Assembly: GCF_004369205.1 (NCBI RefSeq)
Contig: NZ_QFGA01000003.1
Location: 434,001 to 498,000, forward strand
Length of the DNA: 64,000 bases
Reading direction: 5' to 3'
From: Pelotomaculum schinkii
Lineage (GTDB): Bacteria > Bacillota > Desulfotomaculia > Desulfotomaculales > Pelotomaculaceae
The position numbers and the translations under genes are program-made. Position 1 is the first letter of the stretch, and the number at the start of each line of letters is the position of its first letter. Below are positions 10,379 to 60,608 of this stretch, piece after piece. A model generated the notes under the pieces. It worked only from the letters and a program-made list of their open reading frames with translations. It did no database searches and was not told the origin of the DNA.

Positions 10379-11554
10379 TTGAAAAAAAACAGGTATCTAT
10401 TGGTCCTGGTGGCTTTGCTGGCCTTAGCCTTGATGGCTGCCGGCTGCGGCGGCGCCAAGGAGACACCCAAGGCGGCTGGTGGAGACACCATTAAGATTGG
10501 GTTCCTGGGGGGGTTGACCGGTGGACACGCTCACTATGGAATTGAAACTCTGAAAGGGATGCAGATGGCCGTCGACGACATCAACAGCGCCGGCGGGGTT
10601 AACGGCAAAAAACTGGAGATCGTCCAGGGAGACCACGGCAGCAACAGCAGTGAGGCCGCTAACGTTACGCAAAAGCTGATCACCCAGAAGGTGTCTGCCA
10701 TTGTCGGCGACCCGACCACTGGTATTACCAAATCGGCCGCCCAGATTTGCCAACCGGCCAAGGTTGTCCTGCTCTCGGCAGGGGCTGTCGGCCCGGGAGT
10801 TGTTGAAATTGGTGACTACATATACCGCGATACCTTGCTTGACGCGGTTGCGGCGCCGGCGGTGACCAGATATTTAGCCGAAGATCTCAAGTGGAAAAAA
10901 GTAGCCCTGGTTACAACTACCGGCCTTTCCTACAGCGAAGGGCTGACCAGTATCTTTAAACCGGCGCTGGCCAAGTATGGTATGGAAATTGTGGCCGAAC
11001 AGAGCATCATGGAAAAGGACACCAACTTCAGCGCCCAGGTCACGGCCCTCAGCCAGAAACAATTTGACGGGGTGGTTTTCACCGGCTATTATACCGAGGG
11101 CGCTCTGTTCATGAAAGAAATGCGCAAGCAGGGGCTCAACCAGGTGATGGCCGGAGGTGACGGCCTCTTGGGTAAAGAACTTTACGAACTGGGCGAAAAT
11201 GCCGTTCAGGGGAGTATGGTTTACGCCGGTTTTGCGGTGGACACCCAGAACGCCACCGGCAAGACCAAAGAATTCATTGAGAAATACAAAGCCAAGAACA
11301 ACAATGCCCTGCCCGACATGTTCCCCGCTCAGGGCTATGACGCGGTAATGCTCCTGGCAGACGCCATGAAGGCGGCCAATAGCAGCGATCCCACCGTTTT
11401 CAAGGATAAGCTCGCTCAGACCAAGGACTGGCAAGGCGTTACCGGTACGATTACTTTCGACGAAAAGCGCGAACCGATCAAGAGCCCGGTCTACCTGCAA
11501 GAGGTGAAGGGACAGGCTTTTGCGGTCAAAGCGGTTATCCCCATCACACAATAA
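10379..11554 (+). CDS. Branched-chain amino acid ABC transporter substrate-binding lipoprotein (LivJ/LivK type)
   Basis: Periplasmic-type ligand receptor for the transporter encoded immediately downstream. It begins at TTG 10379 after an A/G-rich GGGGGAAAAGGG box. The N-terminus is a lipoprotein signal (MKKNRYLLVLVALLALALMA, then AGC with Cys23 as the lipidated residue). The mature part is a type-1 periplasmic-binding fold: IKIGFLGGLTGGHAHYGIET, GGVNGKKLEIVQGDHG, TDNFSAQV-like and GYDAVMLLADAMK segments. Length is 391 residues, as usual. The ligand may be leucine/isoleucine/valine or another amide or short acid; sequence alone does not settle it. A 252-base gap separates it from livH. Confidence 0.85.
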   Translation: MKKNRYLLVLVALLALALMAAGCGGAKETPKAAGGDTIKIGFLGGLTGGHAHYGIETLKGMQMAVDDINSAGGVNGKKLEIVQGDHGSNSSEAANVTQKLITQKVSAIVGDPTTGITKSAAQICQPAKVVLLSAGAVGPGVVEIGDYIYRDTLLDAVAAPAVTRYLAEDLKWKKVALVTTTGLSYSEGLTSIFKPALAKYGMEIVAEQSIMEKDTNFSAQVTALSQKQFDGVVFTGYYTEGALFMKEMRKQGLNQVMAGGDGLLGKELYELGENAVQGSMVYAGFAVDTQNATGKTKEFIEKYKAKNNNALPDMFPAQGYDAVMLLADAMKAANSSDPTVFKDKLAQTKDWQGVTGTITFDEKREPIKSPVYLQEVKGQAFAVKAVIPITQ

Positions 11555-47055: not shown

Positions 47056-47180
47056 CTTTAGACACTCCATGAAGTAATTTTATTACATAGTATGGGTTGG
47101 ATAATATTTTAGTTTCGGCAACGCGAAGGAAAGTGAGAAATGGTTGCAGAATATTCTTCCCCGGAGGGAAAAATAAAGAT

Positions 47181-48557
47181 ATGTTGAATAGACAAATACT
47201 CACTCAATTTTCGCATGCCCTGCATGCGGCAAAAGGCCTGACTCTATACCGGGGTATTATGGAAGACCCGGTCTGCCGGGCCATGGTAGTTTTCCTTGAA
47301 AAGGTGACCGGCCAGGCCCCGATGGAACAAATCCTGGACTCTTACGGCGAGATATTTCGCCTGCTGTCTGCAAAAGCCGTCTTAGCGGGGGAGAAGCCTG
47401 TCGGAGATGCCTGGCAGGACCACTTGCTTAACCTGATCTTGTACCAGGACAACCCTTTTAGTGAAGCAGCGGCCTCAGTTCCTTACGGGCAACTGGGCCA
47501 TTCCCTCAAACAGGCCGCAATGTGGGATCTCAACAAGCTGCAGGTTTTACACAGGGTTGAAGCCGGAGCTGCTCTAGCGTCACTATTAAAGATGGAGGAC
47601 GAATCCTTAGCCGGCCAATTGCCGGTGTGGGATGCCCTCCATATCCCTTTTGTCAGCGAAACAGGCAGGGACGGCAGGCCAAAAGCAAGGGAATTGAAAG
47701 AACTGCTTAGCGGAAGGGGTGACTGGAGCGCTTGTCTCGAGGCTCTGTCGGACTATTACATTTGCGCAGGGTCAGGTATTTTCGGCAGGTATGGGGCATT
47801 TCGTTGGGTAAGCCGGTATGAACACCTGGAAGGTATTGATGAGCCCGATCCGGTGCGTCTGGAGAAACTGATTGGGTACCGGTCTCAACGTCAGGAAGTG
47901 GTGGATAACACCGAAAAATTTCTTGCAGGACTTCCGGCGAATAATATTTTACTTTACGGCGATCGTGGTACCGGTAAATCTTCCACGGTAAAGGCTTTGC
48001 TGAACCGTTACCAGGCAAGGGGCCTTCGTCTCATTGAGGTTCCCAAAAGCGCCCTGGGCGATTACCCGTTAATCATAAGAAAACTTAGAGGGAAGCCCCA
48101 GCGCTTCATCCTTTTCGTTGACGACCTTTCTTTTGAGGATTCAGAGGTCGAGTACAAGGAGCTTAAAGCGGTTTTGGAGGGCGGGCTGGAGGTACGCCCG
48201 GCCAACGTACTGATTTACGCTACCTCCAACAGAAGACACCTGGTCAGGGAACATTTTTCCGACCGTGGACCAGCCGGTGACGGGGATGGAGATCTCCGAA
48301 CAGGGGATACTGTGCAGGAGAAACTTTCCCTGGCAGACAGGTTTGGCATCACGGTCCTTTTTGTCATGCCCGACCGCTCGCTCTACCTCGATATTGTACG
48401 GGGATTGGCTGAACAAAGGGGTATTGATATACCCGGCTCTGAACTCGAGAAAAAAGCGCTGCTCTGGGAGACCTGGCACAACGGGCGTTCCGGTCGTACC
48501 GCCAGGCAGTTCATCGATGATCTCAGCGGTGAGCTTGGTAGACAAAAAAAACAATAA
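47181..48557 (+). CDS. DUF815 family AAA+ ATPase
   Basis: ATP-binding protein of the DUF815 family, related to AAA+ ATPases. The start is ATG 47181 (MLNRQILTQFSHALHAAKGL) after CGGAGGG; an upstream in-frame TTG at 47097 is less likely. A helical N-terminal region of about 200 residues precedes the ATPase core. Walker A is ILLYGDRGTGKSSTVKALL (Lys266), Walker B is FILFVDDLSFED, and a sensor region reads NVLIYATSNRRHLV. The DUF815 hallmark around Walker A and the C-terminal GRTARQFIDDLSGEL are seen. It has 458 residues. Its role is unknown; homologues are widespread in sporulating and other bacteria. Confidence 0.8.
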   Translation: MLNRQILTQFSHALHAAKGLTLYRGIMEDPVCRAMVVFLEKVTGQAPMEQILDSYGEIFRLLSAKAVLAGEKPVGDAWQDHLLNLILYQDNPFSEAAASVPYGQLGHSLKQAAMWDLNKLQVLHRVEAGAALASLLKMEDESLAGQLPVWDALHIPFVSETGRDGRPKARELKELLSGRGDWSACLEALSDYYICAGSGIFGRYGAFRWVSRYEHLEGIDEPDPVRLEKLIGYRSQRQEVVDNTEKFLAGLPANNILLYGDRGTGKSSTVKALLNRYQARGLRLIEVPKSALGDYPLIIRKLRGKPQRFILFVDDLSFEDSEVEYKELKAVLEGGLEVRPANVLIYATSNRRHLVREHFSDRGPAGDGDGDLRTGDTVQEKLSLADRFGITVLFVMPDRSLYLDIVRGLAEQRGIDIPGSELEKKALLWETWHNGRSGRTARQFIDDLSGELGRQKKQ

Positions 48558-48751: not shown

Positions 48752-49054
48752 ATGAACAGTCCTCGCTTTCTGTTAATCCTGTTTGCATTGGCCTTTCTTG
48801 CCATGCAGACCATAAGCTTCATGTCGACTTTGACCAAACATGAGGACAGGGTGGTTAAACTTGAAAAGCAGGCCGTTCAGTTTGAAACCAAGGGCACTTA
48901 CATCGACCTGAAGATGAACCCGGCTGTGGAATTAAAGAAGGAAGAAGACAGGTTTAAAGCTGAAACTGTGAATTATGTCATCAAAGTGCTTGTTATTTCA
49001 GGGGCAACGGTTTTTGTCCTTGTCTTGATGAAACGGGTGCAAGAAAGCGGCTGA
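48752..49054 (+). CDS. Hypothetical small membrane protein with two TM segments
   Basis: Unrecognised protein of 100 residues with an N-terminal helix (RFLLILFALAFLAMQTISFM) and a C-terminal helix (IKVLVISGATVFVLVLMKRV) flanking a charged, probably helical loop of about 45 residues (KHEDRVVKLEKQAVQFETKG). ATG 48752 is preceded by AAGGGGGGAATTCT, a good ribosome binding site. Both ends are probably on the same side of the membrane, leaving the coiled-coil-like loop on the other. It lies alone between the DUF815 gene and the repeat before the CotF-like gene. Confidence 0.65.
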   Translation: MNSPRFLLILFALAFLAMQTISFMSTLTKHEDRVVKLEKQAVQFETKGTYIDLKMNPAVELKKEEDRFKAETVNYVIKVLVISGATVFVLVLMKRVQESG

Positions 49055-49330: not shown

Positions 49331-49990
49331 ATGAAATTCGGAACACATGAAGCTATGGAGGTCCATGAGGTATTAAGCGAGAATACCTGTATGATTGACC
49401 ATTACGCCATGTACCTGAACCAGTGCCAGGATCCCGAATTACGGAGGGTCTTGGAACGCCAGCAACGCCACATGGTTGATACGTATAATACCATGGTAAA
49501 CGTAATGCAGGGACAGGGTATTGATGTATCCGGGGCTCCCCGCATTACCATGGGTTCAACAACCAGAATGGCAGGGGAAAACCAGCCTGATTATGGTATG
49601 CAGCAGGCTGCGCCGGTAATGCCCAAGCCGGAAGCCAAAACCCTGAGTGACCGTGCCATCTCCATGGGCGCCCTGGTATTTCACAAATGCGGAGCTATAC
49701 GCAGCACCAGCGCCGCCCTGGAGTGCGCCAACCCGAACCTGCGCAACATGCTCGCTACAGCGGCCCGCTCCTGTATGGAGATGTCCTATGAAATCTTCCA
49801 GTACATGAATCAAAAAGGTTGGTACCCGGTGCCTGCGATGCCGGAGAGTGTGATGAACCAGATGCAGCAGACCTACCAGCCAACTATGGTGGGGCAGGGA
49901 GGACAGACCGGTTACGGGGTGCAGATGAGTCCTGGGGGGCAGACAGGAAAGGCCGGCCAAATGGGTCAGATCAATCCATACGGGCACTGA
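49331..49990 (+). CDS. CotF-like spore coat protein
   Basis: Coat-type ferritin-like helical protein of the CotF family. The N-terminal helical bundle (HEAMEVHEVLSENTCMIDHY, YLNQCQDPELRRVLERQQRH) and a second pair (LSDRAISMGALVFHKCGAIR, CANPNLRNMLATAARSCMEM, QYMNQKGWYPVPAM) are typical. The last 45 residues are Gln/Gly/Met-rich and low-complexity (QMQQTYQPTMVGQGGQTGYG), as in many coat proteins. Length is 219 residues. ATG 49331 follows AAGGGAGGTTCGAC. It probably acts in the spore coat, expressed in the mother cell; the promoter type is not visible. A terminator follows directly. Confidence 0.82.
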   Translation: MKFGTHEAMEVHEVLSENTCMIDHYAMYLNQCQDPELRRVLERQQRHMVDTYNTMVNVMQGQGIDVSGAPRITMGSTTRMAGENQPDYGMQQAAPVMPKPEAKTLSDRAISMGALVFHKCGAIRSTSAALECANPNLRNMLATAARSCMEMSYEIFQYMNQKGWYPVPAMPESVMNQMQQTYQPTMVGQGGQTGYGVQMSPGGQTGKAGQMGQINPYGH

Positions 49991-50011: not shown

Positions 50012-50043
50012 GGCCCCACTTTCTGTGGGGCCGCACCTTTTTC
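50012..50043 (+). terminator. Rho-independent terminator after the CotF-like gene
   Basis: GGCCCCAC (50012-50019) and GTGGGGCC (50025-50032) form a perfect 8-base stem with a five-base loop, followed by GCACC and a T5 run. It lies 22 bases after the stop codon. Confidence 0.85.
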
Positions 50044-50101: not shown

Positions 50102-50368
50102 TTAGCGATGCCACATCCACATTTGTTGGGCCAAAAACATTAGCGCTGCCGCCACCAGGGAAACACAAGCGAGTAATCTGGTGCGGCCATGTTTTGCAGC
50201 CAGCAGGGCAACCTTTTCTTCCAGATCAGTTACCCGTGCGCTTAAGTCCCTAAGTTCACAGTTAACGAGTTCCACCCGGTCCTCGGCCGGTTCCACTAAT
50301 TTCTTCTGGATGGATGAGGCCAGGGATTCTACAAGTTCCAGGTGGTTTTGCCGTTTTTCATTGGGCAT
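50102..50368 (-). CDS. Small tail-anchored coiled-coil protein of the dynamin cluster
   Basis: Unrecognised 88-residue protein. The start is ATG 50368 behind GGAGGGAACAAAG; the gene overlaps the end of the preceding 99-codon gene by 11 bases. Residues 1-60 are predicted helical, with a heptad-like stretch (VNCELRDLSARVTDLEEKVA). A C-terminal membrane helix (LLACVSLVAAALMFLAQQMW) ends the protein, so it is probably tail-anchored with the coil in the cytoplasm. It is the last gene of the minus-strand set headed by a dynamin-like GTPase and could recruit it to the membrane. Confidence 0.66.
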   Translation of the reverse strand: MPNEKRQNHLELVESLASSIQKKLVEPAEDRVELVNCELRDLSARVTDLEEKVALLAAKHGRTRLLACVSLVAAALMFLAQQMWMWHR

Positions 50369-50657
50369 CTTTGTTCCCTCCGCCGGCCTGATTAATCGCG
50401 TCTCTAAGCGCTGCCAGGATTACCAGAGGTACCTGCTGTATTTTATTCTCCAGGACCTCCAACCGCTGCAGCAATTCCGTGATTGCCGCCCGGTCCTCTT
50501 CGCGGAACTGTTCCAGGCTGGAAGCCAGTTTTCTGTTTTCCTCCAAAACGGGCTGGACCATCTTTTTCCTCAACCCGGTCATGATATCTTTAAGCATTTG
50601 CTGAAATAATTCGTCACCGTTGTGGCCGCCTTTGACTTCATCCAGCTTTAATTCCAT
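50358..50657 (-). CDS. Small helical protein of the dynamin cluster
   Basis: Unrecognised 99-residue soluble protein, almost entirely helical, with a coiled-coil candidate (VLEENRKLASSLEQFREEDR and ITELLQRLEVLENKIQQ). ATG 50657 follows GGGGGAAACAGGT. It overlaps the next gene by 11 bases in another frame and lies 20 bases after the preceding 64-codon gene, so cotranscription is likely. Its RKKMVQPVLEENRKL wording resembles the KKLVEPAEDRVEL stretch of the next protein, hinting that the two are related or interacting. Confidence 0.62.
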   Translation of the reverse strand: MELKLDEVKGGHNGDELFQQMLKDIMTGLRKKMVQPVLEENRKLASSLEQFREEDRAAITELLQRLEVLENKIQQVPLVILAALRDAINQAGGGNKDAQ

Positions 50658-50677
50658 ACCTGTTTCCCCCAGTCCTT

Positions 50678-50872
50678 TTACATTTTTTCAATAGCCTTTT
50701 TCAAAAGTTCGAGCAGCCGGTTGGTTTCCTTGCGGGCATGCTCTTCGATGGCTGTTTGGAAACATTCACCCAAATCGCCGAGCAGGTCCTTTTTGATTTC
50801 GCTTCCGGTGCGCCCGCTGATCTCGCTGATTATTTTACGCAGCCGCTCGTCCAAAATCCTGGCGTTTTCCAC
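50678..50872 (-). CDS. Small helical protein of the dynamin cluster
   Basis: Unrecognised 64-residue protein. It starts with GTG 50872, nine bases after a GGGAGGT box. The sequence is helical and charged (EISGRTGSEIKKDLLGDLGE, EEHARKETNRLLELLKKAIE), without a membrane segment. It is 118 bases downstream of the dynamin-like gene and 20 bases ahead of the next small gene. Its size is at the limit for confident calling, but the strong ribosome binding site and the operon position support it. Confidence 0.58.
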   Translation of the reverse strand: MENARILDERLRKIISEISGRTGSEIKKDLLGDLGECFQTAIEEHARKETNRLLELLKKAIEKM

Positions 50873-50990
50873 TTATTTAATACCTCCCGGGTTTTCATGA
50901 AAAAACCATGCCTGTACCCGCCAGGGAAATGCATCCAGGGTGTTCCGCACCGCCTTCGGTAACCCCGGGCCCGCAATTCAAACCACACTT

Positions 50991-53342
50991 TTAAGGAGGT
51001 TTGGCCGGGGAGACTGAGCTGCGAATTTCTTTAAGCTTACTCCTGTAGTCACGCAAGGTTTCCTGCACTTTTCGCAGTTTAACCTTCACGCTTCCCGAAG
51101 CGTTCCGTTCAAGGTAGGCTTTGGCCGCCCGAAGTGACGCCTCATCCAGAATTCCTAAAAGCGCGGCTATTTTATCCAGGTAAAAGTCTGTGGCCCGGTA
51201 TTTAAAGATGCCTTCCTCCAGCGCTTTTAATAAAGAGCCCATACTGTGGGCATCCTCCCCGGACAGTGCTTTGAGAGCCGATATCAGAAAAATATTGGGG
51301 GCGCCTGAGGCAGGAGCATACTTACCGTTAGGGGGGCCGAGGTTTCTTCGCATAAAATTGCAGACAGCTTCCCGTTCAGCCAAACCCAAGGCATCGGCAA
51401 AATTAATGATGAAGAAATATTTCCCCCTCTCGCGTGCTGTCAAGGTCTGAAAACTGGCGTCTGACTGTGGAAGGAACAGAGTCTGAAAGTTTTGCCGGTC
51501 CATCTGATTCAGTATATGCTTGCCGTTAAAAAAGACGAGGTACGCGTCACTTTGCCGGATCAGGCCGGAGGTCTTTGGGTAATGGTATTTTTGAATCCAG
51601 TCGAGACCCGGCGTGTCAAGGAAATCTGCAAGCCTCAAAAACTCCGAGGGGTGCTCAACCACCACCTGCTCAATACGAAAGGCGTTCTCCGGGCCCAAGA
51701 CCTTCCTGAACTGCTCCCGGCCGGATTGTTCGGAAAGATTGAACTCAGAAGACCAGGCGTCCTTAAAGGTGACCCTGACCTGGTCCAGGAAGGGGTTTCG
51801 CTTATTTGCCTTCTGGGAAATCAACCTGAATACGCCCGGTATCCTGCTGCTGTTGGCTGCCGTCCTGGCGAAAGCCCCGGCCGCAAAATGTGCTTTCACC
51901 CGCTGTATCCGCTTAAGGACCTCCTGCCTGTCAAGGAGCCGGAAGAAGCCTCCGTCGGCGCACTCGACTGAAGCTACAGCGTCGTTGCCGGGAGCAAGCC
52001 ATCTCTCCAGCGCCTGTAGCTGTTCCCTGTAGATCCCGACCTTCTCACCCACCTGTTCGCAAGTATTCAGGGTGATTTGCAGAGGAAAGTGGACGGTGGC
52101 TTTTTTTTCAGGGCCGTAAGTTATCCTGGTAACTGCTGTGGTTGTAGGCCCGTCGGCAGCGGGAAGGATGTCTTCCTTCAGCAGGGCGTTAAAAAAGGTT
52201 GTTTTCCCGGTGGAAAAACCGCCCCAGGCCGCCGCCGAAAAACGCTCCGACTGGATTTCACGGGCTATTATTTCAACCGCAGGCAGGTCTATTAACCCTT
52301 CAGTAGTTTTTTCAGCCAGTAAATCAGCAGTCAAGGCCAGCAGCCTTTTTTTGTTTTCCTTCATACTGGTTGTTTTGGGGCGGTAGATGTGTCCTTCGGG
52401 TCTTTTGTGCCCGGCGCCCAGGTTCGCGAGATTGGCGGTTCTCAAGGTATGCTCAAGCTCACCTGCAACTGCGGGGAGAGACTGCAGCAGTTTTCCGGTT
52501 TCAAGGATAACCCGTGAGGTTTCCTGAACTCTCCAGAATTCTGAGAGAAAAGCTGTCTCTTCCTTAATCCTGACGACTTTTGAAATACGCCCCGGCAGTT
52601 CATGATCCAGCTTCTTCAGGCGTCCGTATGCCCGCCGGCAGGTATCCCGGGCCAGCTCCACCTGTAAAAACAGGTTGACGGCCTCAACACTGGCGGGGTC
52701 ATGCGTGTTGATGGTGTAACATCTGACCGGGCTCAGAAAAATCTCCCGCAGTATGGTCCGGGTTGTCTCTAAAGACGAACCGTCGCATAAGCCGTGGTTG
52801 CAGTTCAACCAGAAGGAGAGCTTGTTTATGTCCTTCTTTTTCCAAATATCAGCCAGCTTGTACAAGAACAGGCGGTTAAAATCCTCCATACCGCGCTGGT
52901 GAAAAAGGTAGATAACCTGGTCGGCCTCTATCGCCGCCTGTTCAGCGAGAAGCCCGGCGTCACGTGCTCCGTCAATGCCGGGAGTATCAAGCAGACGGCA
53001 TTTTTTTAAAAGCGGAGAGATATGCTCTATGGAAACCCTGCCTGCGGGAGTTTTTAACCCGCTCCCCAGGAAAGAGCGAAGCTGGTCCATATTTTGAAAA
53101 GGCAAGTTTTGCTTGACCCCGGTATAACTTGCCCTAAAGATATGACCGTAGTCAAAGGCTACCAGACAATTGGTGGTCGGGACAACTCCCACCGGGCTGA
53201 CCTCCGCTCCCAGCAGGCCGTTAACAAGGGTGGATTTGCCGGAATTGAATGACCCGAGGACTGCGACGCAAGGCTTTGCAGTCTGGTCCAGCAGCTCATA
53301 TATATCCTCCACCCCCTGGATAAACCGGTTCACCTGACCCAT
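50991..53342 (-). CDS. Tandem-GTPase dynamin-like protein
   Basis: A 783-residue bacterial dynamin-like protein with two GTPase domains in one chain. Unit 1: P-loop LGSFNSGKSTLVNGLLG (Lys36), G2 Thr in VGVVPTTNCLVAF, G3 RLLDTPGIDGARD (Asp119). Unit 2: P-loop WGGFSTGKTTFFNALL (Lys380), G2 in DGPTTTAVTRITYG, G3 ADFLDTPGLDWIQKYH, and a likely G4 in FFIINFADALG. Helical stalk-like regions follow each. The layout is like the fused two-headed B. subtilis DynA but shorter, with no obvious membrane helix. Family members remodel or fuse membranes, often under envelope stress or phage attack. ATG 53342 follows GGGGAGGTTGG. Three small helical genes lie downstream on the same strand, and a regulator diverges upstream. 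Confidence 0.82.
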   Translation of the reverse strand: MGQVNRFIQGVEDIYELLDQTAKPCVAVLGSFNSGKSTLVNGLLGAEVSPVGVVPTTNCLVAFDYGHIFRASYTGVKQNLPFQNMDQLRSFLGSGLKTPAGRVSIEHISPLLKKCRLLDTPGIDGARDAGLLAEQAAIEADQVIYLFHQRGMEDFNRLFLYKLADIWKKKDINKLSFWLNCNHGLCDGSSLETTRTILREIFLSPVRCYTINTHDPASVEAVNLFLQVELARDTCRRAYGRLKKLDHELPGRISKVVRIKEETAFLSEFWRVQETSRVILETGKLLQSLPAVAGELEHTLRTANLANLGAGHKRPEGHIYRPKTTSMKENKKRLLALTADLLAEKTTEGLIDLPAVEIIAREIQSERFSAAAWGGFSTGKTTFFNALLKEDILPAADGPTTTAVTRITYGPEKKATVHFPLQITLNTCEQVGEKVGIYREQLQALERWLAPGNDAVASVECADGGFFRLLDRQEVLKRIQRVKAHFAAGAFARTAANSSRIPGVFRLISQKANKRNPFLDQVRVTFKDAWSSEFNLSEQSGREQFRKVLGPENAFRIEQVVVEHPSEFLRLADFLDTPGLDWIQKYHYPKTSGLIRQSDAYLVFFNGKHILNQMDRQNFQTLFLPQSDASFQTLTARERGKYFFIINFADALGLAEREAVCNFMRRNLGPPNGKYAPASGAPNIFLISALKALSGEDAHSMGSLLKALEEGIFKYRATDFYLDKIAALLGILDEASLRAAKAYLERNASGSVKVKLRKVQETLRDYRSKLKEIRSSVSPAKPP

Positions 53343-54713: not shown

Positions 54714-55730
54714 TTAGTATTTTCTTATTACCACATAATCTGCCGCAAGGCTTAAGTTTAATCTGGTAGGTCTGTCAGGGAGCTCTTTTAATGCCTGCTT
54801 GGCCTTATGGATATATTTCTCAACAAGTTCGAGAGATTGCTCGATAGCCCCACTGCTGGTAATTATGCTGATAGCTTCCTGTAACTCGCCATCGTCTTTT
54901 TCAGGTTTTGCCACCAGTTCTTTAAGCCGCTCTCTTTGTCTGGATGTATCCAGGGCATAAATTACCGGCAGAGTGATAATTCCCTGTCGCAAGTCACTGC
55001 CGATAGGCTTGCCCATCTCACGCTGGTCGGCAACCATATCCAGGATGTCATCGGTAATCTGAAAAGCCATGCCCACTGCGTGACCGTACCGGTATAGCGG
55101 CAAGTAAATGCTTTTAGACGCACCGCAGGCTACTGCACCCAGCTGCGTGCTCGCTGCAATCAGCATGGCGGTCTTTCGTTTAATCCGGTATAGGTAGTTC
55201 CTCAGATTCTGTTTGACATCAAAGGATGCGGCTATCTGTTGGATTTCACCCTCACACATGTTGACGCTGGTATCAGCCAGGACTTTAGAAATAAGTGGGG
55301 TATATTCATAACGGGCTATCAACATGAGGGATTTAGCAAAAAGATAGGAGCCAATGTGGGTGGCGATACTGTTTCCCCACATGGCCTTGACAGTGGGCTT
55401 ACCCCTGCGGGTTAGCGAAGCATCAACGACATCATCATGTACCAGTGTAGCCATGTGGATCAGTTCCAAAGCAGCAGCCAGCGGCAGGATCCTCTGCAGG
55501 TCGAAGTTATAGAATTTTGCGCCAAGGAGGCAGAGCGCAGGTCTCAGTCTCTTGCCACCCGCATTAAGGAGATGCGTAGAGGTCTCGGTTAGAAGCGGGT
55601 TTGGCGTTTTCACCACATCACTTAACTCTTTTTCCACCATCTGCAGTTCTTTTGCGATGTCTTTGAAAAACTCTAATATCTTTACCGCTTCCTTTACCTG
55701 AAATAAACAAAGAAAATATTTAGTATCCAT
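54714..55730 (-). CDS. Polyprenyl (heptaprenyl-type) diphosphate synthase
   Basis: Trans-prenyltransferase making the side chain of menaquinone or a related isoprenoid from IPP and a short allylic primer. Both Asp-rich motifs are intact: LVHDDVVDASLTRRG (first) and ITDDILDMVADQREMGKPIG (second). Further landmarks are GGKRLRPALCLLGA and KRKTAMLIAASTQLGA. The start is uncertain. ATG 55730 gives 338 residues but lacks a clear box, while the AAAGGAAG near 55690 would suit a start around the LEFFKDIAKEL segment, which has no standard codon. Its position behind tatC and the hydrogenase genes fits a role in supplying quinone for respiration, an inference. Confidence 0.83.
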   Translation of the reverse strand: MDTKYFLCLFQVKEAVKILEFFKDIAKELQMVEKELSDVVKTPNPLLTETSTHLLNAGGKRLRPALCLLGAKFYNFDLQRILPLAAALELIHMATLVHDDVVDASLTRRGKPTVKAMWGNSIATHIGSYLFAKSLMLIARYEYTPLISKVLADTSVNMCEGEIQQIAASFDVKQNLRNYLYRIKRKTAMLIAASTQLGAVACGASKSIYLPLYRYGHAVGMAFQITDDILDMVADQREMGKPIGSDLRQGIITLPVIYALDTSRQRERLKELVAKPEKDDGELQEAISIITSSGAIEQSLELVEKYIHKAKQALKELPDRPTRLNLSLAADYVVIRKY

Positions 55731-55859
55731 TGTAGTACGCACGTAAAAAAAGACTACCGACAGCCACATTGTCGGCAGTATGATGCCATTTTTGGTACTG
55801 ATGTTGTAATAAGCCATTATAATTCTAGAGCAGTCCATGTTTTTCACGGATGGGCATGA

Positions 55860-56645
55860 CTATTTAACTGTGGCTGCTGATTGTACTTCAGTCATGTCGA
55901 CCAGGCGCTCACGCTCTTTTTTGCGGGCAAGCTTGCGTTCAACGATGCGTACTACCAGCGCGCTTAGTTCAAAAAGCAAATACATGGGACCGCTGATGAT
56001 AAGGCAGGTAACTACATCCGGCGTGGGGGTGATTATGGCCGCCAGGGCTACAACAGCCAACATGGCGTAACGGCGGTTTCTAGCAAAAAAGGCATGTGTC
56101 ACAAGTTCCATTTTGGCCAGGAAAAAGCTTATTAAAGGAAATTCGAACACTATACCAAAAGGAAGGAGAAAGGAAATCGTGAAAGAAATATACTTGTCGA
56201 TTGTAAGTAATGGTGTTAGTGTTGGTCCGGCAAATTGGAGTAAAAACATTACACCCATTCGATAGACACAAAAAAAACCGAAAGCAATACCGCCTAAAAA
56301 ACTGACAAAGGATATCAAAACAAAAATAGAAAAGTAGATCCTTTCATTTTTTTTTAAGGCAGGAACAATAAAACCCCATACCTGCCATAAAATTACCGGC
56401 AGCGCCGCCAGGAAACCGGCAAAGAAAGATATCTTGATTTTAACAAAGATCGCCTCTGTGATACCGGTGAAAAATATCTTCTGCCCCAGCTTGGTAATTG
56501 GTTCCAGCATTGATGCCAAGATCCTATCGCTGAAAAAATACGCTCCCACAGCAAATATGGCAGTGGTAATAATTGAAACAATTAAAACATGACGCAGTTC
56601 TTCTAGGTGCTCAATAATGTTCATTTCTCCGTTAGTTTTAGCCAT
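55860..56645 (-). CDS. tatC: Twin-arginine translocase subunit TatC
   Basis: Membrane core of the Tat translocase; recognises twin-arginine signal peptides. The N-terminal signature MNIIEHLEELRHVLIVSIIT and about six helices are clear, with VLISFVSFLGGIAFGFFCVY and ITPTPDVVTCLIISGPMYLL as typical stretches. Length is 261 residues, with a basic C-terminal tail (RIVERKLARKKERERLVDM). It lies 43 bases downstream of tatA and behind the hydrogenase genes, whose small subunit carries a Tat signal. Confidence 0.94.
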   Translation of the reverse strand: MAKTNGEMNIIEHLEELRHVLIVSIITTAIFAVGAYFFSDRILASMLEPITKLGQKIFFTGITEAIFVKIKISFFAGFLAALPVILWQVWGFIVPALKKNERIYFSIFVLISFVSFLGGIAFGFFCVYRMGVMFLLQFAGPTLTPLLTIDKYISFTISFLLPFGIVFEFPLISFFLAKMELVTHAFFARNRRYAMLAVVALAAIITPTPDVVTCLIISGPMYLLFELSALVVRIVERKLARKKERERLVDMTEVQSAATVK

Positions 56646-56688
56646 CGTTTTCCCCCACTATTATTACAGGCAGTTGGGAATAGGGGCT

Positions 56689-56901
56689 TTAATTCTTGGC
56701 TGCCTTAATCAACTGCATTTGGTTATCTTTTTTCTCATCTGCAACCGCTTCCACCTCGTTCATTATTTCGGAGGAAGAACGACGAAACTCTCTGATTGTT
56801 TTACCAACCGCCTTGCCAAGTTCCGGTAATTTGCCGGGTCCAAAGATAATTAAAGCCAGTGTCAAAACAAGGATTAATTCAGGTACGCCAATGTGCGGCA
56901 T
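56689..56901 (-). CDS. tatA: Twin-arginine translocase subunit TatA
   Basis: Pore-forming component of the Tat system. The start is ATG 56901 (MPHIGVPELILVLTLALIIF), eight bases after AAGGTG. The short N-terminal membrane helix is followed by the FGPGKLPELGKAVGKTIREF hallmark and an amphipathic helix, then an acidic tail. At 70 residues it is a normal TatA/TatE-like protein; no separate TatB is seen, as usual in Firmicutes. Confidence 0.93.
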   Translation of the reverse strand: MPHIGVPELILVLTLALIIFGPGKLPELGKAVGKTIREFRRSSSEIMNEVEAVADEKKDNQMQLIKAAKN

Positions 56902-57108
56902 AATGTTACACACCTTTCAAATTTTAATTTTTAAACACAAGGAATCAAAGTTGGCACAAAAAATCCTCTCAACCAACTGACGATGATATGACTATATTTA
57001 GGGCGATGAAAGTCATCTATCACCTCCTCTTGTTAACTGCTTTACAAAACCGGAGCCTATTCGTGCATAATAGGTCTCCGGTATTGTATTTTGGTGATGA
57101 TTATTCTG

Positions 57109-58278
57109 TTAAGCAGGGAAGTGGGTACCATAGGTAGCTGTACTGTTACTGTGTGCATGCCCTTCCTTGGGCAGAATTGCGAAGTTTTCCACAATAAACA
57201 GGTAAGCCAACGCCAGGAAGCTCCACATGCCGAGGGTAATCAGAAATTCCCAGGCGCTGGGGAAGTAGCTGCCGCCCACGCTCCTGGCCATTCCGGTGAA
57301 GACCACATTCATGCGGTTGAATACAACTCCTACCACCACCAGGACGGAGGCGGTTACAACCCCCCAAAGCTTGTTGCGGATGGAGGGGATGGCGTACATG
57401 AAAATCGGCAACAGGACAAAGACAATCATCTCGATCAAGAACATGTTGCTCTCGTGCGAACCGTTGAAAGCCATCCCGAAAACGCCCCGATAGTTGAGAT
57501 CAATCATCTTGATGATAAAGTAAATGATCATCATCCAGGTGGTTATTCTGGTCATGCTTTGAAATACAGGCAGCTCCGGATCTCGTCCATAAGCTCTTGA
57601 CGCTATGGTCCCTTCGATGGTAACCATGGCCGGCCCCAGGAAGAAGGCGGACCAAACGAAGAAGAACGGGAGCAACATGGACCACCACAGGGGATAGAGT
57701 TTATCAACAGCAACGATAAAGAGTGAGCCCAGCGACGATTGGTGCAGGGTGGGCAGGACGATGCCCAGGATCAATAATGGTGTTATCATGTACCCCAGAA
57801 TCTTTTTCAATGACGGGCACTTAACCTTCTCGAAGAAGATGTCTCCAAATTCCAGGACCTGGATTGTTGTATAAATAGAAATGCACCAGAACACTTCAAA
57901 CAATACCGAGTGGAAACCCCAATAGAAGAATGGCCTCCAGAAGTTAAACCATCTCCCGATATCCAACAAGAGGCTGGCCAGGGATATAATGTAGCCAAGC
58001 AAGGAAGTTAACAGTGCGGCGCGGGCGATGGGGAGGTATTTGTCCCGGTGCAGGACGTGGACTACCAGCGCAGTACTGAAGCCGCCGCCTGCCAGGGCGA
58101 TGCCGCACAAGAGGTCAAAGCCAATCCACAGGCCCCAGGGCCACTGGTCGTTTAAGTTGGTTACAGCTCCCAGGCCGTAGATGAAGCGGTACAGGGAAGC
58201 AGCAGCCGCAATCAGCACAGATATGATTAACAGTATTCTGAACCAGGTAATTCTAAAGCTCCAATTTCTTCCGTACAT
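57109..58278 (-). CDS. hybB: NrfD/HybB-like membrane subunit of the [NiFe] hydrogenase
   Basis: Polytopic membrane protein of the NrfD/PsrC superfamily that passes electrons between the ferredoxin subunit and the quinone pool. Ten or so helices are visible in 389 residues. Features include WPWGLWIGFDLLCGIALAGG near the N-terminus, a conserved stretch around PFFYWGFHSVLFEVFWCISI, and SAFFLGPAMVTIEGTIASRA. The length and the order small, large, ferredoxin, membrane subunit match a Hyb-type (hydrogenase-2-like) complex. It is the last of the four hydrogenase genes, 27 bases after the ferredoxin gene; tatA follows about 200 bases later. Confidence 0.83.
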   Translation of the reverse strand: MYGRNWSFRITWFRILLIISVLIAAAASLYRFIYGLGAVTNLNDQWPWGLWIGFDLLCGIALAGGGFSTALVVHVLHRDKYLPIARAALLTSLLGYIISLASLLLDIGRWFNFWRPFFYWGFHSVLFEVFWCISIYTTIQVLEFGDIFFEKVKCPSLKKILGYMITPLLILGIVLPTLHQSSLGSLFIVAVDKLYPLWWSMLLPFFFVWSAFFLGPAMVTIEGTIASRAYGRDPELPVFQSMTRITTWMMIIYFIIKMIDLNYRGVFGMAFNGSHESNMFLIEMIVFVLLPIFMYAIPSIRNKLWGVVTASVLVVVGVVFNRMNVVFTGMARSVGGSYFPSAWEFLITLGMWSFLALAYLFIVENFAILPKEGHAHSNSTATYGTHFPA

Positions 58279-58305
58279 ATTCTCACCACCACTATAAACA
58301 AAGAT

Positions 58306-59121
58306 TTATTCCTTGGGATCGACGGGAGCGTACATTTCGGCTTCATTATGTCCTTCCTCTTTAGGTTTTGTAAAGAATCTCATTGCTGTAAGCATGGCCC
58401 CCCAACCGGCAAAGATGTAGGGAGTCCACTTGAGCGCCTGCCAGGTATAAGATGGTATTGATTTTTCCGAAACACTGGTTTTGAAGCCGAGCTGTTCAAA
58501 GGGGACATCAGAAATGTACATCCAGGATGTGCCGCCATACTCTTTTTCCCCGTATATGTGTTTGACGTAGTTTGAGTTGCTGTTAATCCTCTGCCTGGCT
58601 TCGGCAAGAAGCGTCTGTCTGTCGCCGTATTTCAACGCGCCGGTAGGGCAGGCGGTGATACACGCGGGCCGTTCGTTCTCCAGCAGACGGTCGTAGCAAA
58701 AACGGCATTTTTGGACGTACGGGAATGTTTTTTCGTACTGAAACTTAGGTACGTTGAAGGGACACGCAATCATGCAGTAGCGGCAACCCACGCAGTAATC
58801 CTTGTTCAACTCTGTGGGTTTGTAGATGACCGGGCCTTCTTCTGTTTTAAGAAAGGAATGGGTAAAGCAGGCGGACTCGCAGGCAGGCTCATTGCAGTGC
58901 ATGCACTGCCTTTTGACAAACCTCCACCTGCGCTCATTGCCCTCCCCGGCCAGATAGCAGCTGACCCTGGTCCAGGTATCCGCGTCCAGTTCTACCGGGA
59001 CGTCCCATTGGTTTGTATTTTGAGACGTTTTGACGGGCAGGTCATTCCAAGTCCTGCAGGCTGTCTGACAGCTCCGGCAGCCGATGCATTTGCTGATGTC
59101 TACCAAAACGCCATTGGACAT
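58306..59121 (-). CDS. hybA: HybA-like four-cluster ferredoxin subunit
   Basis: Electron-transfer subunit with four 4Fe-4S motifs: CIGCRSCQTACR (12-23), CMHCNEPACESACF, CVGCRYCMIACPF and a CRFCY ... CITACPTGAL pair, 16 cysteines in all. The C-terminal region (WTPYIFAGWGAMLTAMRFFT) can form one membrane helix. There is no N-terminal Tat or Sec signal, unlike E. coli HybA, so export must rely on the partner small subunit or the protein faces the cytoplasm. Length is 271 residues. The gene lies 41 bases after the large-subunit gene. Confidence 0.85.
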   Translation of the reverse strand: MSNGVLVDISKCIGCRSCQTACRTWNDLPVKTSQNTNQWDVPVELDADTWTRVSCYLAGEGNERRWRFVKRQCMHCNEPACESACFTHSFLKTEEGPVIYKPTELNKDYCVGCRYCMIACPFNVPKFQYEKTFPYVQKCRFCYDRLLENERPACITACPTGALKYGDRQTLLAEARQRINSNSNYVKHIYGEKEYGGTSWMYISDVPFEQLGFKTSVSEKSIPSYTWQALKWTPYIFAGWGAMLTAMRFFTKPKEEGHNEAEMYAPVDPKE

Positions 59122-59162
59122 CTTTGCACCTCCTATTTCCGCTTGGATTTAATTTACTTTGA

Positions 59163-60608
59163 TCAGACTATAAAGCTCTTGGGCTCCTTGGAAACACCCT
59201 TGATTTCAAGCACGTGAACCGCGCAGGCAATACAAGGATCAAAAGCACGGACGATACGCACCAGTTCAATGGGGTTGTTGGGGTCTTTGACCTGTGCTCC
59301 TACCAGAGCTTCCTCAACCGGACCACGCTGACCCTTGTCATCCCGCGGGCTGCAGTTCCAGGTTGTTGGTACCACAGCCTGGTAGTTTTCGATTTTGTAA
59401 TCTTTGATGGTAATCCAGTGTCCCAGGGCGCCGCGGGAGGCTTCGTGTAAACCTATACCCGACCCTTCCTTAGGGATGTCGAAAGGGGCATAGCAGGGTT
59501 GACCGGGCACCAGCTGGTTAAGCCATTCCAACATAGCACCTGCTACTTGAGCTGTTTCCACTGCACGTGCAAAGTGCCTGCCTAAAACTGAAAATGCTTT
59601 ACCCCCTAACGCCAAAACATCCTTCTGTTTGTTCACTACCTGTCGCGACAGCGGGCCTACTTCATAGGGCAAACCGTCATAGCGCGGTGCTTTAAGCCAG
59701 GAATATGCGTCTTTTTTGCCCGGTGTGGGTACAGTCGCGCCGTCACCGGGGTGCCTGCCGGTCAACTTATCATCGTACCAGGAATATTTGACTTGCTCAG
59801 AAATCTTTTTATGGTCCATGGGCGCGTACTGTCCTTTGGCGTAGGTACCGCGTATGAAGAGCTGTTGTTGCCCGTCCGGGTCTAATTGGTCAGTTAGCCG
59901 GAAAGCGCCGTAAGCCAGCAGGTTTTTGTAGCCTGTCCCAATGTTGAACCAATCATCGTACGCTCCTGCTACTGCCAGGACGTCCGGGATATATACGTTG
60001 TTGATAAAGGAGGTAATTTCCAGTAGGTAAGTCTTAAACTGGGCGATTTTCTCAGAAGTTACGTGCTCAGTTATTCCACCAGCCGTGTAGGTCGTAACGT
60101 GGGGCATTTTGGCCCCGAATACAGCGCCCATTTCATGAGCCTTTTTGCGGATACTCAGAGCCTGGATGTAATGCTCAACGGCTTTATCGTTAATTTCCTT
60201 GGGCAGGCGGTAGTCACCCTCATAACGGGGGATGAAAGGCGAGGTGTCCGGTCCCTTCACGTAATCCAGGGCGGTCAGGTGGTAAAAGTGCAGGATATGT
60301 GACTGCAGGTAATTTGCTCCCTGGATTAAGTTGCGTAAAATCCTGCCGTTTGCAGGTGGTGTGACTTTAAAGGCATCGTCCAGGCATAAGATGGAGGCAG
60401 TGCCGTGAGCAATGGGGCAGACGCCGCAGATACGCTGGGTAATGTGACAGGTGTCGCGAGGATCTCGCCCTTTAAGAATTATTTCTAGCCCGCGGAATAG
60501 AGTACCGCTAGACCTGGCGTCAATTACCCGGCCGTTTTCAATTTCTGCTTCTATTTTCAGGTGCCCTTCAATCCGGGTTACCGGATCAATAACTATTTTT
60601 TGTGCCAC
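59163..60608 (-). CDS. hybC: [NiFe] hydrogenase large subunit
   Basis: Catalytic subunit carrying the Ni-Fe centre. The N-terminal ligand pair is Cys61/Cys64 in QRICGVCPIAHG, and the C-terminal pair is Cys459/Cys462 in DPCIACAVH (His465). After the conserved His a 16-residue extension (VLEIKGVSKEPKSFIV) remains, presumably removed by a maturation endopeptidase; no such protease gene is in this window. Length is 481 residues. ATG 60608 gives MAQKIVIDPVTRIEGHLKIE, the usual N-terminus. The ligand motifs fit a group 1 respiratory uptake enzyme, although subgroup assignment needs a tree. Confidence 0.92.
   Translation of the reverse strand: MAQKIVIDPVTRIEGHLKIEAEIENGRVIDARSSGTLFRGLEIILKGRDPRDTCHITQRICGVCPIAHGTASILCLDDAFKVTPPANGRILRNLIQGANYLQSHILHFYHLTALDYVKGPDTSPFIPRYEGDYRLPKEINDKAVEHYIQALSIRKKAHEMGAVFGAKMPHVTTYTAGGITEHVTSEKIAQFKTYLLEITSFINNVYIPDVLAVAGAYDDWFNIGTGYKNLLAYGAFRLTDQLDPDGQQQLFIRGTYAKGQYAPMDHKKISEQVKYSWYDDKLTGRHPGDGATVPTPGKKDAYSWLKAPRYDGLPYEVGPLSRQVVNKQKDVLALGGKAFSVLGRHFARAVETAQVAGAMLEWLNQLVPGQPCYAPFDIPKEGSGIGLHEASRGALGHWITIKDYKIENYQAVVPTTWNCSPRDDKGQRGPVEEALVGAQVKDPNNPIELVRIVRAFDPCIACAVHVLEIKGVSKEPKSFIV

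Follow-up and report, generated by a model that had tools for sequence, protein, structure and literature searches.

The 64,000-nt stretch of Pelotomaculum schinkii DNA analysed here (the window) encodes a soluble, two-headed dynamin-like GTPase together with three small helical proteins, one of which is predicted to be tail-anchored. The set suggests a small, hitherto undescribed machine, whose anchored helper would deliver a soluble dynamin to the membrane. The four genes lie on the minus strand in the order DLP (the GTPase, 783 aa; 50991..53342), sp1 (64 aa, with a GTG start, soluble and helical; 50678..50872), sp2 (99 aa, soluble and helical; 50358..50657) and sp3 (88 aa, with a C-terminal membrane anchor; 50102..50368). 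DLP and sp1 are separated by 118 nt and sp1 and sp2 by 20 nt, and the sp2 and sp3 reading frames overlap by 11 nt. A Shine-Dalgarno-like element could be read on the minus strand before every start: GGGGAGG for DLP, GGGAGG for sp1, GGGGG for sp2 and GGAGGGA for sp3. An earlier note on this DNA had described a 783-residue GTPase followed on the same strand by genes of 64, 99 and 88 codons, two of them overlapping and all with good ribosome binding sites; its coordinates, lengths and strand were exact, and the other two features are those given above. In the interval between sp3 and the convergent gene of a CotF-type spore coat protein (49331-49990, plus strand) there is a terminator-like hairpin with an 8-pair stem (50012..50032), which is a consensus match only, hairpin counts being near the shuffle expectation.

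DLP was matched by the Pfam Dynamin_N model in two stretches (116 bits against a cut-off of 27, E 2.1e-33). Head 1 covers approximately residues 1-235 (52638..53342, minus strand) and head 2 approximately residues 351-715 (51198..52292, minus strand); the domain ends are estimates. Genomes with a DLP ortholog are called carriers below. In head 1 we identified G1 (GSFNSGKST, residues 30-38), G2 (PTT, 55-57) and G3 (DTPGID, 119-124), and in head 2 the equivalent motifs at residues 374-382 (G1), 399-401 (PTT) and 576-581 (DTPGLD). The P-loop, the G2 threonine and the DTPG are kept nearly without exception in both heads of the carrier alignment (K36 54/54, T57 51/53, D119 55/55 and G122 55/55 in head 1; K380 57/57, T401 57/57, D576 56/56 and G579 56/56 in head 2). 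The canonical G4 motif, [T/N]KxD, was found in neither head of this alignment. The G4 region of head 1 is non-canonical, N180-x-N182...D187 (N180 in 55/55, D187 in 54/55), and head 2 has a G4-like N-F-[AST]-D at residues 647-650, where Phe takes the place of the usual Lys (56/56). The G1-G3 spacing is 83 residues in head 1 versus 196 in head 2, and the ∼110 extra residues of the latter gave no Pfam family match. By profile, the nearest PDB relative of head 1 is Cj-DLP2 (5owv_C), and the best relatives of head 2 include Cj-DLP1 (5owv_A), BDLP1 and SynDLP. A single-sequence structure model of DLP was discarded (pLDDT 36). The two Dynamin_N stretches, the motifs in both heads and the structural-profile relatives bear out the first reading of this gene as a dynamin-like, two-headed GTPase.

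The same reading had noted that the GTPase lacks an obvious membrane helix. No membrane-helix-like segment was present in DLP in any of the 57 carriers, where the 19-residue hydropathy does not exceed 1.56. The window protein has ∼115 residues between the heads and ∼70 after head 2, which would leave little space for either trunk or paddle. Most of the GTPases of families f4, f6 and f18 carry a C-terminal extension of roughly 150-180 aa that is missing from the window DLP (loci L086-L097, L105, L106, L114 and L115). Single loci depart from the common form: in L051 (genome G010, a single-contig genome) the DLP frame is broken mid-gene, at about 10380-10560, with sp1-sp3 intact, which may be decay or a sequencing error, and in L090 the DLP ORF stops early, 603 nt before sp1.

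The most conserved part of sp1 is its N-terminus, MENAR.LDERLR.II.E.S..TG.EI, with R5, L11, I14 and G23 present in 57/57 sequences. For sp2, a single-sequence model (pLDDT 81, pTM 0.41) predicts a helix of 64 residues (11-74) followed by a second one (76-92) around the conserved Pro77 (PL.IL.AIRDAINQA); P77 and L81 are found in 57/57. The sp3 protein has three parts, an N-terminal motif (SLA..I....V.P, with L16 and P27 in 57/57), a coiled-coil-like stretch of variable length and the C-terminal anchor. In the window the anchor spans residues about 65-84 (50117..50176, minus strand), its 19-residue hydropathy peaks at 1.98 and the membrane-helix-like segment (residues about 65-83) ends 5 aa from the C-terminus. 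A C-terminal hydrophobic segment, which the earlier note had claimed for the last gene, was observed in every sp3 (57/57, with peaks of 1.66-3.05 and ends 0-10 aa from the C-terminus). The analysis supports the conclusion that, without exception among the 57 carriers, a soluble GTPase is accompanied by an sp3 with a predicted tail anchor. Since differences in sp3 length fall mainly between the N-terminal motif and the anchor while these two persist, the sp3 stalk appears to be spacer-like. A helix motif, K.VxP, is common to sp2 and sp3 (HHalign P 6e-4, probability 29%); this weak match is suggestive, but not proof, of a paralogy in which sp2 would be the member without a TM segment.

No family that describes sp1, sp2 or sp3 was found in Pfam, NCBIfam, PADLOC or PHROGs, and a search of the available literature for Desulfotomaculum or Pelotomaculum together with dynamins gave no relevant paper, in agreement with the first impression that the set was not a recognised one. 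Pfam matches of the small proteins to the DNA ligase N-terminus and to Med10, and of one of 21 sp3 sequences to the bacterial dynamin helical domain (E 0.0016), were single-member and low-scoring, and were rejected as chance. The sp1-sp3 proteins lie outside all the curated families searched and are readily missed in annotation.

The distribution of the four genes was analyzed in 113 genomes of one order, the Desulfotomaculales, which are spore-forming anaerobes, with search profiles built from 22 ortholog loci of the window's family. A DLP ortholog was found in 57 of the 113 genomes, in seven families and with one copy in each. Profile searches located sp1 and sp2 in the identical 57 genomes, at one place each, and the remaining 56 genomes lack DLP, sp1 and sp2. 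The genome-level profile detected sp3 in 49 genomes; with an HMM applied to the loci, combined with position, it was identified in all 57 carriers. Among the 25 genomes of the window's family, 24 gave a DLP match at E ≤ 0.001, that of G014 being another dynamin only, and sp1, sp2 and sp3 lie downstream of the DLP ortholog in 22/22 loci. The search for a conserved neighbourhood that the earlier note had proposed revealed the order DLP-sp1-sp2-sp3 in 57/57 carriers (in G037 the set is split over two contigs). Absence of the small genes from homologous loci, which that note had named as a refutation, did not occur. Most intergenic gaps range from a few bases to some tens; in L087, 488 nt separate sp1 and sp2. 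In a phylum sample of 398 genomes, DLP profile matches (E ≤ 1e-20) were confined to the one order, as was sp2, bar one marginal match (E 0.004). An Ardenticatenia locus (L055), one of at least ten DLP matches listed in a scan that took in other phyla, proved to be an ordinary pair of one-headed dynamins and was discarded.

An identical four-gene order in 57 genomes of seven families is more than chance would produce. Because the co-occurrence was counted across related genomes, it is in part shared ancestry. The trees of DLP, sp1 and sp2 resolve family-level clades, as does that of sp3 except for f10, and the pairwise distances of the four proteins correlate with r 0.78-0.91; both are as expected under vertical co-inheritance. 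From the dN/dS values of six genome pairs (DLP 0.16-0.35, sp1 0.12-0.35, sp2 0.09-0.34 and sp3 0.20-0.71) it can be deduced that purifying selection acts clearly on sp1 and sp2 and more loosely on sp3. The presence of the three small genes in 57/57 carriers supports the conclusion that they belong with DLP.

No flanking gene is common to all families in the carrier loci. The flanks are a small TM protein and glycoside hydrolases in f1, DUF815 in f4, and an unnamed 360-aa protein upstream in f5, f10, f16 and a few f1 genomes. Since the flanks change between families and the four genes stay together, the four genes are the unit, and the glycoside hydrolases and DUF815, neighbours in some families only, were rejected as partners. 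The gene of a DUF815 ATPase is present in the window too (47097-48557, plus strand), convergent to the set; in f4 it lies downstream on the same strand in 15/16 genomes. Also convergent, in at least 19 of 23 family loci, is the gene of a 100-aa protein (48752-49054, plus strand) with a hydrophobic segment near each end, a charged middle and a weak DUF7365 match only. At 54714-60608 (minus strand), polyprenyl synthase, TatC, TatA, NrfD-like, ferredoxin-like and hydrogenase large-subunit-like genes, named by sequence appearance, stand in a row.

Two genomes of the same genus as the carrier G086 have lost the set. In G087 and G089 (loci L126 and L127) there is a clean deletion of all four genes, whose flanks (79-94% identical) meet at the expected site and leave a relic of the sp3 3′ end. 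The left breakpoint is common to both genomes, which points to one deletion event, and a single deletion of adjacent genes speaks for dispensability more than for functional linkage.

We propose that all four genes belong to a single operon and that their products make up a single, membrane-associated GTPase machine. In this reading, which we put at an even chance, sp3 would serve as a tail-anchored receptor and, together with sp1 and sp2, would recruit the soluble dynamin to the cytoplasmic membrane or assemble it there. Its support lies in the intact G1-G3 motifs of both heads, the constant gene order and the constant division of labour between soluble and anchored members, and there is a precedent for a soluble dynamin-like GTPase, RdcA, that requires its operon partner RdcB (PMC6510439). 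In such a machine sp3 would sit in the cytoplasmic membrane via its C-terminal helix and present the N-terminal motif on a coiled-coil stalk. The sp2 and sp1 proteins would bind the GTPase and/or sp3, and may provide, in trans, the stalk and the membrane contact for which other bacterial dynamins use their own trunk and paddle. The recruited GTPase would then pair its heads between molecules in a GTP-dependent manner, leading to membrane tethering or remodelling. The role is most likely a non-essential membrane maintenance function, the process served being a guess. The first reading held for the dynamin-like two-headed GTPase, the linked small genes and the soluble/anchored pairing; a recruitment of DLP by sp3, which it had raised as a possibility, is what we infer. 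The functions it had mentioned for bacterial dynamins, membrane repair, phage defence or cytokinesis, are conjectural for this set.

A more specific version, which we advance tentatively and rate below an even chance, is a bacterial dynamin whose membrane-binding and stalk functions have moved to separate small proteins: with sp3 as tail-anchored receptor, sp2 as a soluble relative of sp3 and sp1 as adaptor, the three would bring about the assembly of a two-headed, trunk-poor GTPase on the membrane, as a convergent counterpart of Drp1 and its tail-anchored receptors. A trunk supplied in trans cannot hold likewise in f4, f6 and f18, given the longer GTPase C-terminus of these families. Recruitment is directly testable with few constructs, as the set always includes a tail-anchored member, its three small proteins take up about 60-110 codons each and two relatives lack the whole set through natural deletion.

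The main rival is a GTP-dependent signalling device like RdcA/RdcB of Escherichia coli, with the small proteins as adaptors and the GTPase switching a membrane protein on or off, so that the bilayer is not remodelled. RdcA, together with its same-operon partner, controls a membrane diguanylate cyclase (PMC6510439), and the odd G4 motifs of both DLP heads and the scarcity of trunk would suit a switch as well as a mechanoenzyme. We nevertheless judge this alternative unlikely: no target gene is linked to the four-gene set across all families, sp3 supplies its own membrane anchor, and DLP falls far under the cut-off of the RdcA/CrfC model (PRK09866; 17.3 against 1146 bits), so that it is not a member of that family.

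Next comes phage or membrane protection, with the set as a defence against phages or membrane damage comparable to DynA or LeoABC. The weak match of the PADLOC LeoA models to DLP (56 bits), the dispensability of the set in G087 and G089, and the finding that DynA shields B. subtilis populations from lysis by phages (PMC8844932) are in its favour. Against it are the single copy per genome and the vertical inheritance at the family level, the small proteins, for which PADLOC gave no credible match, and the limited scans of phage, plasmid and viral-contig collections, in which no full-length relative was found and on which a mobile-element or phage origin was rejected. The phage defence reading is therefore disfavoured, and we give this alternative a low probability as well. 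A role in endospore formation, by engulfment membrane fission or coat assembly, is quite improbable, since the CotF neighbour of 12 loci is no neighbour in f4, f6, f10, f16 and f18, and SpoIVA, which is encoded in almost all carriers, is found in 104/113 genomes, in carriers and non-carriers alike, and hence does not explain the distribution.

Among known systems, DynA of B. subtilis, from the firmicutes, resembles DLP in having two GTPase heads in one chain (PMC8844932). It differs in size, its model (NF052648, equivalog) having 1187 positions versus the 783 aa of DLP, which scored 72.5 bits against a cut-off of 1600 and is not a member. We are not aware of three conserved small partners that would go with DynA. 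In the Cj-DLP1/Cj-DLP2 heterotetramer of Campylobacter two kinds of head also work together, but as separate proteins that have trunks and their own lipid-binding trunk tip, and no tail-anchored partner is described (PMC6104087). Like DLP, RdcA of E. coli (YjdA, CrfC) is a soluble GTPase of the dynamin-like type, and it depends on a protein encoded in its own operon (RdcB, YjcZ); unlike DLP it has one G domain, and RdcB is a soluble protein of 32.9 kDa (PMC6510439). LeoABC is likewise a multi-gene dynamin operon, to which the weak PADLOC match of DLP points, but its partners are dynamin-like or a split dynamin (PMC4159319) rather than helical proteins of 64-99 aa, and DLP is excluded from LeoA by its score (NF041922; 17.4 bits against a cut-off of 325). 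Eukaryotic Drp1 with Mff or Fis1 combines a soluble dynamin with a small tail-anchored adaptor (PMC9377713). The analogy is one of layout only, sp3 having no Mff or Fis1 family match, and on that layout the architecture of the four-gene set would resemble, by convergence, that of Drp1 and these two tail-anchored receptors.
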